From: Bacteroides mediterraneensis
GTDB lineage: Bacteria; Bacteroidota; Bacteroidia; Bacteroidales; Bacteroidaceae
DNA: 64,000 nucleotides
Direction of reading: 5' to 3'
NCBI RefSeq assembly: GCF_016900355.1
Contig: NZ_JACJKA010000003.1
Span: 62,001-126,000, forward strand
Part shown: positions 31,847-37,597 of the stretch, one piece after another
Position numbering within the stretch: the stretch's first letter is position 1
Layout of the letters: each line of letters starts with the position of its first letter
Program-made: the position numbers and the translations under genes
Notes under the pieces: model-generated
What the model was told of the DNA's origin: nothing
Databases searched by the model: none
Seen by the model: the letters and a program-made list of their open reading frames with translations, nothing else

Positions 31847-31877
31847 TTGCCCGTCCCGACAAATTGGCGTTACTTTG
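31847..31877 (+). promoter_or_regulatory. Promoter of the TonB-dependent receptor gene
   Basis: TTG at 31847-31849 and TTACTTTG at 31870-31877 (one mismatch to TAnnTTTG) are separated by 20 bp; the ATG is at 31908. A small inverted repeat AATCCT/AGGATT (31829-31834, 31843-31848) overlaps the -33 element and could be an operator. Confidence 0.55.
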
Positions 31878-31907
31878 CACCCGTTAACTAAACTATATTA
31901 CAGCAGA

Positions 31908-34364
31908 ATGAAAAAAAATACCGCTATCGCTTTTCTATGGGCCGTCTCAGCACCCTGTGTATGGGCCGGAACTTCTCCTGTAGATGCCTTGCCTAAAGAT
32001 ACGACCAAGGTCATCGACATTGAAGAAGTAGTCGTCATTGCCACGCCGAAGGAAAACAACCGTCTGCGCCAGCAGGCCGCTTCGTCTACCTCGTTTTCAC
32101 AAAGTGCCTTGCGCAACAACTCGGTCACTTCCGTAAAATCCCTGTCGGCTCTGGTACCGAACCTGTTCATTCCTGACTACGGTTCCAAACTGACCACTTC
32201 CGTCTATATCCGCGGTATCGGTTCTCGTATCAATACGCCGGCGGTAGGTCTCTACGTCGACAACATTCCTTTCATTGACAAGTCGGCTTTCGACTTCAAC
32301 TACTCGGACATCGAGCGTATCGACGTCATGCGCGGACCGCAGGGTACCCTCTACGGACGAAACACCATGGGCGGACTCATCCGTGTGTTCACCAAATCGC
32401 CTTTCACCTATCAGGGCACAGACCTTCGCCTGGGTGCGGCCACTTACAACAACTACAACGCTTCGCTCACCCACTACCACCGTATCTCCAGCCAGTTTGC
32501 TTTCAGTGTAGGCATGTTCTACGACCACAAAGGCGGATTCTTCAAAAATGACTTCAACGGCAAACGCATTGATACGGACAATGAATTCGGCGGACGTATC
32601 CGTGCCATCTACCTGCCCACGGATAATCTGAAACTCGACTTCACCGTGAACTACGAATACACCAACCAGGGCGGCTATCCGTATGAATACACCGGAAAGG
32701 TAAGTGGCGAAGAAGACCGTGCGCAATACATCGGACGCATCTCCTACGACAACGCCTGCGGCTACAAGCGCAACCTGCTGAACAGTGGATTGAACTTAGA
32801 ATATCAAGCCGACAACTTCATTCTGAGCAGTGTGACCGGCTTCCAATACCTGCGCGACCACATGGACCTGGACCAAGACTTCACGGAACAGAACATCTAT
32901 ACCATGATGCAGAAACAGAACTCCAAGACCCTGAGCGAGGAAATCGTCCTGAAATCCAAGCCCGGACGCCGCTGGCAGTGGACTACCGGAGTGAGCGGTT
33001 TCTACCAATGGTTGGATACGGAAGCACCTGTCACCTTCCAGAAAGACGGAGTCAACTGGCTGAACAGCACCATCAACACCAACGCCAACAAATACATGCC
33101 GACCATATCGGCCGGTCCGATGACCATGAAAATGACTTTCAATGACGTCATCAACGGCGAACAACTGGTCATTCCGGGACAGTTCGGCACGCCTATCCTG
33201 AATGCAGCCGTGTTCCATCAGTCCACCTTCAACGACCTCTTCGGTCTGGAAGGACTTTCACTGACCGCCGGTCTCCGCATGGACTATGAAAGCCTGAAGC
33301 TAAATTATTACAGCGGTTGCCAGTTTACCCATACCTACTCACTGAGCGGCACACTGACTCCTGGCAACAAAGTCATCCCGATGGTACCGGCACAAGATTT
33401 CAACGTGAACAACAGTTACAACGGAAAGCTGTCGCACGACTACATCCAGCTGTTGCCCAAGTTTGCCCTGCAATACAACTTTGATTCACGCAACAACATT
33501 TATGCCAGCGTGAGCAAAGGTTACCGCTCGGGAGGATACAACATCCAGATGTTCTCCGACCTGCTGCAAAACGACATGCAGGCCAGCATGATGAAAGATG
33601 TGGCCGATGTAACGATTCCTATCGTCAATAACGTGCCCATGCTGAGCGAGGACAAGAAGCAGATGATTGCAGGTATGCTGAACGGCATGGCCCAGGCTCC
33701 TCAAACCGACGTGAAGGCAGCCACTCTCTACAAGCCAGAATATTCATGGAACTACGAAATCGGTTCGCACCTCACCCTGCTGAACGGCAAACTGCAGGCC
33801 GACCTTTCTGCCTTCTACATGGATACCCGCGACCAGCAGTTGTCACGCTTCGCCGAAAGCGGACTGGGACGTATCACGGTCAATGCCGGTAAGAGCCGAA
33901 GCCTGGGAGCGGAAGCCAGCCTGCGTGCCCAGCTCACCGACCAGTTCAGCCTGAACGGTAACTACGGTTATACCTGTGCCACTTTCACCGACTATGTGGT
34001 GAGCGAGACGGGAAACTACAACGGCAATTACGTACCATTCGTACCGAAACATACCTTTACCGTAGGCGGACAGTATATCTTCCCGCTCCGCAAGAATGCC
34101 ATTCTGGACAACATCACCCTCGATGCCAACTACCGGGCGGCAGGACGTATCTACTGGACAGAGCAGAACAACGCCAGTCAGGCCCTCTACGGCACACTGA
34201 ACGGACGCCTCAGCCTGAACAAAGGAAACGGGCAAATCGGTATCTGGGTGAACAACGCCCTGAACAAGGATTACCAGGCGTTCTACTTCGAAACCATGAG
34301 CCGAGGCTTTGCCCAAAAGGGACGCCCCGTACAAGTGGGCATCGACATACGGTGCAGGTTCTGA
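31908..34364 (+). CDS. TonB-dependent receptor (non-SusC type)
   Basis: An 818-residue outer-membrane receptor that should import a ligand using TonB energy. A signal peptide (ending VWAG) is followed by a TonB-box-like IEEVVVIATP, a plug domain (about 60-170; SVKSLSALVPNLF, VYIRGIGSR, VMRGPQGTLYGRNTMGGLI) and a 22-strand-type barrel ending in the aromatic VQVGIDIRCRF. It lacks the N-terminal carboxypeptidase-like (CNA-B) domain of SusC proteins and has no SusD neighbour, so it is of the siderophore/vitamin-receptor type. I chose the ATG at 31908, whose product starts MKKNTAIAF. It is divergent from the CE1-type esterase. A glycan-related ligand, such as a released aromatic, is possible but unproven. 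Confidence 0.88.
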   Translation: MKKNTAIAFLWAVSAPCVWAGTSPVDALPKDTTKVIDIEEVVVIATPKENNRLRQQAASSTSFSQSALRNNSVTSVKSLSALVPNLFIPDYGSKLTTSVYIRGIGSRINTPAVGLYVDNIPFIDKSAFDFNYSDIERIDVMRGPQGTLYGRNTMGGLIRVFTKSPFTYQGTDLRLGAATYNNYNASLTHYHRISSQFAFSVGMFYDHKGGFFKNDFNGKRIDTDNEFGGRIRAIYLPTDNLKLDFTVNYEYTNQGGYPYEYTGKVSGEEDRAQYIGRISYDNACGYKRNLLNSGLNLEYQADNFILSSVTGFQYLRDHMDLDQDFTEQNIYTMMQKQNSKTLSEEIVLKSKPGRRWQWTTGVSGFYQWLDTEAPVTFQKDGVNWLNSTINTNANKYMPTISAGPMTMKMTFNDVINGEQLVIPGQFGTPILNAAVFHQSTFNDLFGLEGLSLTAGLRMDYESLKLNYYSGCQFTHTYSLSGTLTPGNKVIPMVPAQDFNVNNSYNGKLSHDYIQLLPKFALQYNFDSRNNIYASVSKGYRSGGYNIQMFSDLLQNDMQASMMKDVADVTIPIVNNVPMLSEDKKQMIAGMLNGMAQAPQTDVKAATLYKPEYSWNYEIGSHLTLLNGKLQADLSAFYMDTRDQQLSRFAESGLGRITVNAGKSRSLGAEASLRAQLTDQFSLNGNYGYTCATFTDYVVSETGNYNGNYVPFVPKHTFTVGGQYIFPLRKNAILDNITLDANYRAAGRIYWTEQNNASQALYGTLNGRLSLNKGNGQIGIWVNNALNKDYQAFYFETMSRGFAQKGRPVQVGIDIRCRF

Positions 34365-34423
34365 TACAAAATCATAACCAACTGATTGATAACTATTTAA
34401 AAATTACACAACCACATATAAAA

Positions 34424-34549
34424 AAACGCCTTTGCGTTTCATCTGAAACGTAAGGGCGTTTGCCCCAAAACACAAGTACGTTTTACTTAAAACGCAAGTG
34501 CGTTTAGAACAAAACGCAAGTACATTTGATGCCAAACGTACTTGCGTTT
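34424..34549. repeat. Six-unit array of 16-bp quasi-palindromes, 22-bp period
   Basis: Six 16-bp units start at 34424, 34446, 34468, 34490, 34512 and 34534, exactly 22 bp apart. Each follows AAACG-N6-CGTTT with at most one change in the flanks, and the 6-bp spacers between units are unrelated. Units 3 to 6 share a CAAGTA-like core (unit 6 in reverse). Units 1 and 2 pair as a 15-bp hairpin with two G-U wobbles; units 5 and 6 pair over 13 bp. The array fills the gap between the TonB receptor and the convergent GH67 gene. Confidence 0.85.
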
Positions 34550-34552
34550 TTT
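34511..34552 (+). terminator. Terminator formed by the last two array units
   Basis: AAAACGCAAGTAC (34511-34523) pairs perfectly with GTACTTGCGTTTT (34538-34550), followed by more T residues. It can end transcription from the TonB receptor gene, and on the other strand from the GH67 operon. Confidence 0.7.
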
Positions 34553-34614
34553 CACGAGACATTTCAGGTCCCTAAGAGTCCTCTAAAATCCTCCGAATCC
34601 ACTTCCAATATCCC

Positions 34615-36627
34615 TTATTTTTTCCGCGGAAGCATCTCAACCGTAGGAGGTTCATAGTTACTGATGGGTAACTTCACCTTTTTCAATTCCTTCAAGGTAA
34701 ATACCGGAGGCTCTACCCCTTTGGGATAGGGTTGCTTGGAGAATGTACGGAAATACTCCAGACAAGCATCTTTCCACCACACGGCATCGTGTGCCTGAAT
34801 GTCCAGCCGTTCAGCTACTGCCTGATAGCGTTCCGCATCCACATACGGCTGCATTTCCTTCCACACCCGCTGGAACGCACGCACATCGTCTACCCCTTTC
34901 TGGTACTTGTAACAGAGTTCATCCCACAAGGAACGTCCTGAACGAAGCTTTTGATTCCACTTCACATGATGGAACCAAAGCAGATATTCCTCCAGACATT
35001 GTTCCAGCGAATCGAACACCCGGGCTAACGAATCCGGATACTGCGACACGGCATCACTTCCCGTACGGCTCCGGTCGAAACCCAATCCCTCCTTGTCCGC
35101 CTGATGGTAATACGAAGGCAGCCAATCGGCACGTGCCCCAGGCACCTCACACCAAGGTTCCGGACCGTAATGATGTCCCCAGGCAAAAATGTGATGCAAG
35201 CCCAGCGGCATCATGTAATCGACCACCGCCTCCCGGCTCTCCATCATGACCTGCGTCATGGGTTCCACAAACCGGCGGTCGGTCGTGAAAGTCTGTGCCA
35301 GCCACTCGCGGGCAATCTCTTCCGCCGACAAGTCCGGATTCCAAGCCAACCTCCCGTAAGCATACCAGTTGGCCTGTGCAAAATCATGTCCGCACCAGTT
35401 CACGTGATCACCTACATTCACCACACCCGCTACCCCCTTCAGGGAAGAAGGCTGCACATAGCGGTAAAACTCTTTCCACATAGTAGCCAGATAAGCCAAG
35501 TGGTTGGAATGTCCTAAGTATTCCTGCGTTATTTGAAACTCCACCATCAAGGGTGTATGCGGCATGGCCCCGAACAAGGGACTGTAAGGTTCCCGCGGCT
35601 GAAAGTCAATCGGTCCGTTTTTCACCTGCACCATCACATTGTCCCGAAACCGGCCGTCTAACGGCTGAAATTCCAAGTAAGCCTGCTTGGCCCGGTCGGC
35701 ATCCGACGGACTGTAGACAAAAGCCCGCCACATCACGATTCCCCCGTAGGGCTTCAAAGCCTCCGCCAGCATGTTTGCTCCCTCGGCATGCGTACGCCCG
35801 TAATCACACGGACCGGGCTGTCCTTCCGAATTGGCTTTCACCAGAAAACCACCAAAATCAGGAATCAACCCGTAAATTTCACGTACCTTCTCTTTCCACC
35901 AACGGGCTACCTCCTCGTCCAGTGGGTCGGCCGTAGACAAGCCTCCCAACTTCATCGGAGAAGCAAAATTGACCGAAAGGTACACCTTGATGCCATAAGG
36001 ACGGAACACATCGGCCAACTTCCGCACCTTTTGCAGGTAGTCTTCGGAAAGAATCTCGGGCGAAGCATTCACATTGTTCAGCACAGTCCCGTTGATACCC
36101 ACCGAAGCATTGGCACGGGCATATTCCCGATAACGGGCCGATACGGAATCGGTCAGTTCCTCCCATTTCCACAAAGAACGTCCCGCATAACCTCGTTCAA
36201 TCGTACCATCCAGATTGTCCCAATGGTTCAGCACACGGATGTCAAAAGCCGGCTTTTCCTGAATGTCCAACTGGCTACAATCCGCTCCCTCCGCCTGTAA
36301 CCGCAACAGATGGTAGGTCGCGTACAGCAATCCCTGTTCCGTAGCGGCTCCCAACACCGTCTTTCCCTCGGAAGTACGTATGGTATATCCCTCTTTACCC
36401 AGCCGACGATGAGTTTCATCGGCACAGAGCTGCAAATCCACTTCCCCTCCCTGCCACAAGGCGGCCAGTTCCTCACGCGCCACCGTAAGCATAGGGGAAG
36501 TCACTAAACAACAAACAGACGCTTGATTCACAGGCGTCTGTCGTAACCAAAGTCTGCTCCCGTCTTCGGCCCACAGTGTCAGGGCCAAAGACAGGAAACA
36601 GAGACCACTCCAAAATCGTTTATTCAT
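34615..36627 (-). CDS. GH67 alpha-glucuronidase
   Basis: A 670-residue exported GH67 enzyme, which releases (4-O-methyl)glucuronic acid from the non-reducing end of xylo-oligosaccharides. A signal peptide precedes a beta-sandwich N-terminal domain (about 25-120), a catalytic barrel (about 125-450) and a helical C-terminal domain. Catalytic landmarks are FLVKANSEGQPGPCDYGR (Glu), and the Asp and Glu in NGPIDFQPREPYSPLF, the positions of the inverting apparatus in characterised GH67 proteins. I chose the ATG at 36627 over a GTG at 36633. The start overlaps the GH43 stop by 8 bp, indicating coupled translation at the end of operon A. GH67 acts after GH10, which fits the neighbouring xylanase. 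Confidence 0.95.
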   Translation of the reverse strand: MNKRFWSGLCFLSLALTLWAEDGSRLWLRQTPVNQASVCCLVTSPMLTVAREELAALWQGGEVDLQLCADETHRRLGKEGYTIRTSEGKTVLGAATEQGLLYATYHLLRLQAEGADCSQLDIQEKPAFDIRVLNHWDNLDGTIERGYAGRSLWKWEELTDSVSARYREYARANASVGINGTVLNNVNASPEILSEDYLQKVRKLADVFRPYGIKVYLSVNFASPMKLGGLSTADPLDEEVARWWKEKVREIYGLIPDFGGFLVKANSEGQPGPCDYGRTHAEGANMLAEALKPYGGIVMWRAFVYSPSDADRAKQAYLEFQPLDGRFRDNVMVQVKNGPIDFQPREPYSPLFGAMPHTPLMVEFQITQEYLGHSNHLAYLATMWKEFYRYVQPSSLKGVAGVVNVGDHVNWCGHDFAQANWYAYGRLAWNPDLSAEEIAREWLAQTFTTDRRFVEPMTQVMMESREAVVDYMMPLGLHHIFAWGHHYGPEPWCEVPGARADWLPSYYHQADKEGLGFDRSRTGSDAVSQYPDSLARVFDSLEQCLEEYLLWFHHVKWNQKLRSGRSLWDELCYKYQKGVDDVRAFQRVWKEMQPYVDAERYQAVAERLDIQAHDAVWWKDACLEYFRTFSKQPYPKGVEPPVFTLKELKKVKLPISNYEPPTVEMLPRKK

Positions 36628-37597
36628 CCGCACTGCCTTTTACGGTTTGAATCTTACCGTTCTCGTCATATTCCAGTTCCACCACCTTCAGGCTGCGAAG
36701 CCAGGTCTTTCCACCCGAAGGCACACAGTCGTGATGGAACAGATACCATTTTCCCTTATATTCCACAATGGAATGGTGTGTGGTCCATCCCACCACGGGT
36801 GTCAGAATCACTCCCTGATACACAAACGGACCATAAGGATTGTCACCTACGGCGTAACACAGCAAGTGTGTATCACCGGTAGAATAGGAGAAATAATATT
36901 TCCCATTGTACTTGTGTACCCAGGAAGCCTCAAAGAAGCGGTGTGGGTCACCTGCGGTCAGCGGTTTGCCGTCTTCCCCCAACACAATCACCGGACGCGG
37001 TTCTTCTGCAAAACCGAGCATATCATCCGACAATTTTACCACCCGGCTCGGCAAGGCCGGTTCATCAGCTTCCGGAAGGAACGGGTGCTCAATGGCCTTA
37101 TTGTCCCGATAGCGTTGCAGCTGTCCGCCCCAGATACCGCCAAAATACATGTAATAACTGCCATCCTCATCCTGAAGCACTGCGGCATCAATGCTGTAAC
37201 TGCCCCGAATCGGGTCGGGCTGAGGAATGAACGGACCCTCCGGCTTGTCACCGATGGCTACTCCCATCCGGAAGATGTCGTTCCGGTCCTTCAACGGGAA
37301 ATACAAGTAATACTTTCCGTTCTTGCAGGCAATGTCACAATCCCAAAGCTGGCGTCCGGCCCAAGGAATATCAGCCACCTTCAAAGCCACTCCGTGGTCC
37401 ACGATTTCGCCATGCATCACATCATCGGTAGACAGCACATGATAGTCATTCATGTCAAAATGGTCGCCGTTGTCATTTTCCGGAATGCCGGATTCACGGT
37501 CATGTGAAGGATATATATACAAACGGCCATTGAATACATGTACTGAAGGGTCTGCCATATAATCGGCAGGAAACAGATATCTTTCTTCTTTTTTCAT
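36620..37597 (-). CDS. GH43 beta-xylosidase-like enzyme, apparently cytoplasmic
   Basis: A 325-residue GH43 five-bladed propeller with no signal peptide and no accessory domain. The catalytic base is in YMADPSVHVF, the pKa-modulating Asp in SYSIDAAVLQDEDG and the general acid Glu in HRFFEASWVHKYNGKYYF. Size and sequence suit the small GH43 group (probably subfamily 1) found in xylan loci. The upstream in-frame extension to 37645 is rejected because it would start in the gap after GH10 and adds no signal. With the GPH symporter two genes upstream, it probably finishes imported xylo-oligosaccharides in the cytosol. Subfamily and substrate are inferred. Confidence 0.88.
   Translation of the reverse strand: MKKEERYLFPADYMADPSVHVFNGRLYIYPSHDRESGIPENDNGDHFDMNDYHVLSTDDVMHGEIVDHGVALKVADIPWAGRQLWDCDIACKNGKYYLYFPLKDRNDIFRMGVAIGDKPEGPFIPQPDPIRGSYSIDAAVLQDEDGSYYMYFGGIWGGQLQRYRDNKAIEHPFLPEADEPALPSRVVKLSDDMLGFAEEPRPVIVLGEDGKPLTAGDPHRFFEASWVHKYNGKYYFSYSTGDTHLLCYAVGDNPYGPFVYQGVILTPVVGWTTHHSIVEYKGKWYLFHHDCVPSGGKTWLRSLKVVELEYDENGKIQTVKGSADE

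Follow-up and report, generated by a model that had tools for sequence, protein, structure and literature searches.

Phased arrays of 22-bp-period near-palindromes at gene ends in Bacteroides mediterraneensis and its relatives: candidate bidirectional terminators

Results

The window (the whole stretch of 64,000 nucleotides analysed here) contains a TonB-receptor open reading frame (31875-34364, plus strand) and a convergent 672-aa open reading frame (34615-36633, minus strand), which is called GH67-like after the sequence reading in an earlier note on this DNA. The 3' ends of both genes face an array of six near-palindromic units at 34424-34549. As that note had described for this gap, the units start at 34424, 34446, 34468, 34490, 34512 and 34534 with an exact 22-bp period, and are separated by 6-bp spacers (catctg, gcccca, tactta, agaaca and gatgcc). 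Four of the six match AAACG-N6-CGTTT exactly: the left terminal unit 1 (AAACGCCTTTGCGTTT, 34424-34439), unit 2 (AAACGTAAGGGCGTTT, 34446-34461), unit 4 (AAACGCAAGTGCGTTT, 34490-34505), whose core CAAGTG is the commonest word in the arrays of this genome, and the right terminal unit 6 (AAACGTACTTGCGTTT, 34534-34549). Unit 3 (AAACACAAGTACGTTT, 34468-34483) and unit 5 (AAACGCAAGTACATTT, 34512-34527) have one mismatch each. At the left edge, a run of seven A (34420-34426) overlaps unit 1 and is transcribed as a U run when RNA comes leftward from the GH67 gene. At the right edge, a run of six T (34547-34552) overlaps unit 6 and gives a U run in RNA that comes rightward from the TonB gene.

With up to one mismatch, AAACG-N6-CGTTT occurs in the 64 kb as the six units of the array and nowhere else. 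Shuffled versions of the window had a mean of 2.27 unit matches, and six or more were reached in 3 of 100 shuffles, so the unit count by itself is modest and the phasing is the point. Outward RNA of the array was predicted to fold with -22.0 kcal/mol on the plus strand and -16.6 kcal/mol on the minus strand, each fold ending at the outer T run. The minus-strand hairpin of unit 1 has -5.1 kcal/mol, and unit 6 has a T-G wobble on the outward (plus) strand. The two hairpins proposed earlier, in which unit 1 pairs with unit 2 and unit 5 with unit 6, are present in the plus-strand MFE fold; they are no stronger than in random assortments of the same words (z +0.26 and +0.06). An Rfam search of 34300-34700 by E-value returned 18 weak matches, none of them near its gathering score.

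The arrays were then followed through sampled genomes, denoted by G numbers, with G000 as the source genome, 61 genomes in the genus sample and 392 in the order-wide sample. The relatives were Bacteroides mediterraneensis NZ_LT635783 (G020), P. plebeius DSM 17135 (G024) and a MAG (G053). NCBI taxonomy keeps mediterraneensis in Bacteroides and plebeius in Phocaeicola, and GTDB joins the two in Phocaeicola. The two-unit pattern has 264 matches in the source genome at up to three mismatches, and the reversed-pattern control has none. At up to two mismatches, the AAACG type was found in 31 of the 61 genus genomes (at least five matches in 26, one or two in 5), and the reversed control gave one match in each of five other genomes; the looser AAA-N10-TTT three-unit pattern was found in 33 of the 61. 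The phased-array family is a real, conserved, genus-wide element, and the suggestion of a dispersed intergenic repeat family, one of three options offered from the window alone, has proved right. A full-text literature search, covering open-licence papers and few subscription papers, found no published description of such arrays. Core words are species-specific (CAAGTG and its kin in G000, TCCGTT in G002, CGGCCG and others in G003, CCTTGA in G009), and the number of arrays differs widely from species to species.

In the order-wide sample the loose pattern matched in 58 of 392 genomes, a figure that yields no count of real arrays because many of the matches are, by eye, A+T-rich low-complexity noise (e.g. 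in G130, G069, G123 and G111). Eleven look-alike loci were fetched from outside the genus; the array finder detected an array of at least three units in ten of them and none in G402. Another Bacteroidales family has arrays of 14 units (G319:C1:2267017) and 13 units (G419:C45) with several word classes in blocks. Arrays of 12 and 5 units were also seen in two IMG/VR contigs (L230:11525 and L231:10084) and may be host flanks or phage-borne copies.

Among 32 arrays in G000, 19 have six units, 11 have five, one has seven and one, near a contig start, has four. The distance between consecutive units (up to one mismatch) is 22 bp in 152 of 156 cases, 44 bp in three and 5 bp in one. It is 22 bp in 38 of 38 cases in G020 and in 19 of 25 in G001-G003, where the other six are 44 bp. 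Allowing up to two mismatches adds one or two cases each of a small number of further distances, among them 21, 24 and 27. The inner length of the unit is 6 in 154 of 160 cases, and the consensus is AAACG-YAARKR-CGTTT, with a minor class, AAACG-CTTNGR-CGTTT, recognised by eye. The half-words of the core combine in 31 ways, compared with 63.3 +/- 2.6 in shuffles, and the spacers vary widely, with 107 canonical words among 148.

The rigid period and the restricted core words beside diverse spacers would fit a phased DNA-binding array, in which a protein dimer whose preferred sequence differs between lineages would sit on every 16-bp unit along one helix face and either block polymerase from both sides or organise the nucleoid. 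These features keep alive the protein-binding array that was another of the three options. The neutral word orientation in co-directional arrays (36 AA vs 38 TT) is also consistent with such a protein. The protein is hypothetical, and the many different words within one genome in G003 and G004 would be hard for a single protein to recognise. We consider this explanation rather unlikely, also in view of the RNA-type signals described below.

Pairing within and between units follows a pattern of its own. The central pair 8/9 is seldom complementary (4 of 180, with 65.5 expected), and neighbouring inner units avoid complementarity (P 0.007 in G000; 0 vs 7.4 expected in G009), as would be expected if long perfect palindromes were purged from mid-array. 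In G003 and G004, 20 of 35 three-unit arrays have complementary units 1 and 3 (at least 9 of 10), compared with 0.9 expected. These three-unit arrays are whole-array inverted repeats, and their two spacers likewise show a tendency to pair (z 3.2); the G000 arrays are different. One array in G002 has the same spacer four times.

According to a simple, home-made ORF caller, 13 of the 32 G000 arrays have convergent neighbours, 15 have co-directional ones and none has divergent ones, with four unknown. Given the share of intergenic bases, P is 0.0025 for 0 of 28 divergent and 0.0005 for at least 13 convergent, in a set that is not random because 20 of the 32 arrays were fetched for matching the pattern well. 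The 19 arrays in G001-G003 (8 convergent, 6 co-directional, 3 divergent, 2 unknown) are less clean than those in G000. A regular chromosomal spacing, as for topological domains, was suggested by eight arrays on C44 and was rejected because the arrays are irregularly placed along the 4.03-Mb contig of G020, where one of the listed gaps is 283 kb.

The position of the arrays recalls REP/BIME elements with RAYT, which are likewise high-copy, palindromic, extragenic, 3'-biased, species-specific and sometimes clustered (PMC2817692, PMC3733652). It is conceivable that the arrays are topological sites at gene ends that attract gyrase or another topology factor, with termination as a secondary effect. 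REPs are placed in the same way, between convergent or co-directional genes near 3' ends (PMC3733652), the arrays are about 104-150 bp long, and gyrase is attracted by BIME-2 elements in E. coli (PMC6379681). Unlike REP/BIME elements, the arrays consist of 16-bp units at a fixed 22-bp period, and their positions are conserved rather than moving. The unpaired GTAG or CGTC tag at the palindrome end is absent, and the spacer base frequencies contain no constant tag. The Y1 transposase (PF01797) had no match in G000, G020, G024 or G053; it matched in 6 of the 61 genus genomes, including G007 and G026, which have phased arrays of either kind. The A/T and G/C pattern within units is not the same across species, and a topological site would leave the outward wobbles and T runs described below unexplained. 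We regard this explanation as quite improbable.

To follow the evolution of the arrays, we compared 13 G000 arrays in three blocks with G020. Nine could be placed between aligned flanks, all nine with an orthologous array, and four were not placeable; 2 of 11 G020 arrays were unmatched. Orthologous arrays differ in size by whole units, and the indel count within them was set aside because the array finder requires the 22-bp register, for which the unit distances and inner lengths above are the evidence. Between aligned units, arms differ by 4.1%, cores by 13.8% and spacers by 29.4%, and the word is kept in 24 of 41 units. Words can change beside unchanged spacers, for example from CTTAGG to CAAGTG at C16:30381. 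Arms that change least between species would also suit a protein bound to every unit. An origin of the G000 arrays by tandem duplication of 22-bp units was unsupported, since two units, or two spacers, of one array resemble each other no more than those of different arrays do.

Further occurrences and a conserved period in orthologous gaps were both sought and both found. The family has many occurrences, and the TonB/GH67 gap holds a 22-bp array not only in G000 but also in G020 (four units) and G053 (five units); there is none in G024, whose downstream sequence differs. The sbcC gap has an array in G000, G020 and G024 and a decayed array in G053. No array was found in these two gaps at the loci examined in the wider genus, in a partial survey in which several loci were on the wrong strand or cut.

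A stretch that comprises the window array and about 50 bp to its right (34421-34600) is also present at C44:137447-137626 in G000, with 92.8% identity, 41 kb away and adjoining unrelated genes. By eye, the probable G020 counterpart has a different flank. This points to ectopic conversion in the lineage of G000, and the duplication is likely to have arisen in this way. No other similar pair of flanks was found among 36 arrays. The recurrence at C44:137450, the 13-14-unit arrays in G319 and G419 and the widely varying array count are what a mobile or selfish minisatellite without function, spread by transposition and slippage, could produce. Such an element would not be expected to share a flank with another array in only 1 of 36 arrays, to keep its positions, to have spacers that do not recur within an array (0 identical, 0.9 expected), to have units that evolve more slowly than its spacers or to match only two IMG/VR stretches, and we consider it very improbable. 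Like the BrickBuilt minisatellite/MITE of Porphyromonas gingivalis, the arrays are intergenic and tandem, with a period of about 22-23 nt, in a Bacteroidales genome. BrickBuilt, as PMC4596501 describes it, has a 23-nt spacerless direct repeat (AGAYCATARTATCCTCTCRTRTG), a leader, a tail and terminal inverted repeats. The arrays have a period of 22, different units and none of these three additional parts, and apart from the one pair their flanks are unrelated, with no leader or tail in common. By these features the arrays match neither REP/RAYT elements nor BrickBuilt.

We also looked for ordinary terminators at the gene ends. A hairpin-plus-T terminator (-12 kcal/mol or lower, by a home-made caller) was present at 44 of 54 array-less gene ends, a comparison set of convergent ends only, versus 4 of 16 array-facing ends when the sequence before the array was considered (Fisher P 5e-5). 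Four of the 16 have a terminator after the array, classed as weak, one of these being strong. At the ABC-F gene end, the array directly follows the stop codon in G000, G020, G053 and G024, and a long ordinary hairpin is present in the array-less G006, G017 and G012.

The edges of the arrays carry signals that face outward. The T/A runs past the TTT of the unit have a mean length of 2.2-2.9 nt at the outer edges and 0.5 nt inside. Two positions that form a C-A mismatch in one strand form a G-U wobble in the complementary strand, so wobbles should be unequal between the strands only if the outward RNA folds. In terminal units, pair 6/11 was G-U 30 times on the outward strand and 5 times on the inward strand (21:5 in G000 and 9:0 in G020; within-array permutation P = 1e-4), in a joint count that is not fully independent because the arrays of the two genomes are partly orthologous, and in a test that ran after other wobble tests had been negative. 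In G009, which has another word set, the outward-to-inward ratio over three pairs is 48:26 (binomial P 0.014, permutation P 0.004), if four-unit matches are taken as whole arrays. In co-directional arrays, the terminal unit is paired or wobbles at the sense end in 14 of 15 cases and at the antisense end in 14 of 15, so that both ends are foldable and the element appears two-way even there. The earlier reading that the window array favours function as plus-strand RNA is not supported, since T runs and terminal wobbles are alike on the two strands and point out of the array on each, and since the 1-2 and 5-6 hairpins do not exceed random assortments in strength. Long outward T runs and strand-specific wobbles are signals of the RNA type and argue against the DNA-binding array.

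Of the strand tests, the one on terminal units alone gave a positive result. Over all units of co-directional arrays there was no sense-strand RNA signal (T-G 17, C-A 22), and pairs of adjacent units did not favour either strand (58 outward, 47 inward, P 0.33). In folding, real arrays had no advantage over arrays assembled at random from the same words (mean z +0.29, n=64), and the two-unit stems at the ends did not significantly exceed those of permutations within the array (P 0.125). Single units fold weakly (mean -3.1 kcal/mol). We rejected inter-unit hairpins as a selected structure in G000, since folding is no better than in grammar-shuffled arrays and inner neighbours avoid complementarity.

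Discussion

Bidirectional rho-independent terminators between convergent genes are 4A/4T stem-loops, as described in PMC1590033. Like them, the arrays are palindromic, are flanked by A and T runs, lie in convergent gaps near stop codons and could be used on both strands. The arrays lie 3' of genes with an enrichment between convergent genes, have a hairpin and a U run on both strands, and seem, at most array-facing gene ends, to stand in place of other terminators. Unlike the one long stem of such terminators, they are made of 4-7 tandem near-palindromes with an exact 22-bp period and a species-specific word set. Judging from sequence, we propose that the arrays are probably modular bidirectional intrinsic terminators. 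A structured 3' element is the best supported of the three functions first put forward, by gene-end location, terminator absence, outward wobbles and T runs.

If the arrays are terminators, RNA polymerase from either flanking gene would transcribe the entire array, and the outermost unit at the far end, by itself or paired with its neighbour, would fold as a hairpin right before a U run of about 5-7 nt, where transcription would stop. The same DNA could terminate both ways because every unit is near-palindromic and both edges have outward T runs. The inner units would probably serve as extra hairpins or reserve copies. Arrays appear to gain, lose or rewrite whole 22-bp units at a time, possibly in part via conversion between arrays, and such turnover would give a word set that is common within a genome and different between species.

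Several observations count against terminators. Termination needs no exact 22-bp period, yet the period is kept in 152 of 156 cases. Single units fold weakly, real arrays fold no better than random ones, complementarity is rare at the central pair and avoided between inner neighbours, pairs of adjacent units are strand-neutral, four of 16 array-facing gene ends have an ordinary terminator as well, and 3 of 19 arrays in G001-G003 were called divergent. Since termination alone leaves the exact period without explanation, the DNA-level alternatives stay alive. A wider scheme, which we put forward tentatively and consider rather unlikely, is an order-wide Bacteroidales class in which the geometry AAA-N10-TTT-N6 (22 bp, with both dyads 11 bp apart) would be conserved and the words rewritten in each species. 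RNA-level bidirectional termination would then be combined with a helically phased function at the DNA level (a protein array or a topological site) that enforces the period, and the arrays would evolve in concert by ectopic conversion.

If the arrays are indeed terminators, part of the genes of a gut genus would rely on a two-way stop signal built from repeats, rigid in geometry but with interchangeable words. Gene ends with an array in one species and an ordinary hairpin in its sister species would be natural matched cases for the study of terminator turnover, and the arrays would provide a means of annotating transcript ends in Phocaeicola. They would also raise the clear question of why exactly 22 bp is kept.

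A second family with a 22-bp period was observed in G000, for example at C16:12339 (L024). It has three 12-bp palindromes (AAACGTACGTTT) with 10-bp spacers and ends like TTTTACGTTT and AAACGTAAAA, about 96 bp in all. Further loci are L210-L222, and L223-L229 in G026. Words like AAACTATAGTTT occur in G026 and G059, and AAACTTTTGTTT occurs in G113. This second family is not tied to gene ends, its 14 arrays in G000 being 5 divergent, 4 convergent and 5 co-directional.
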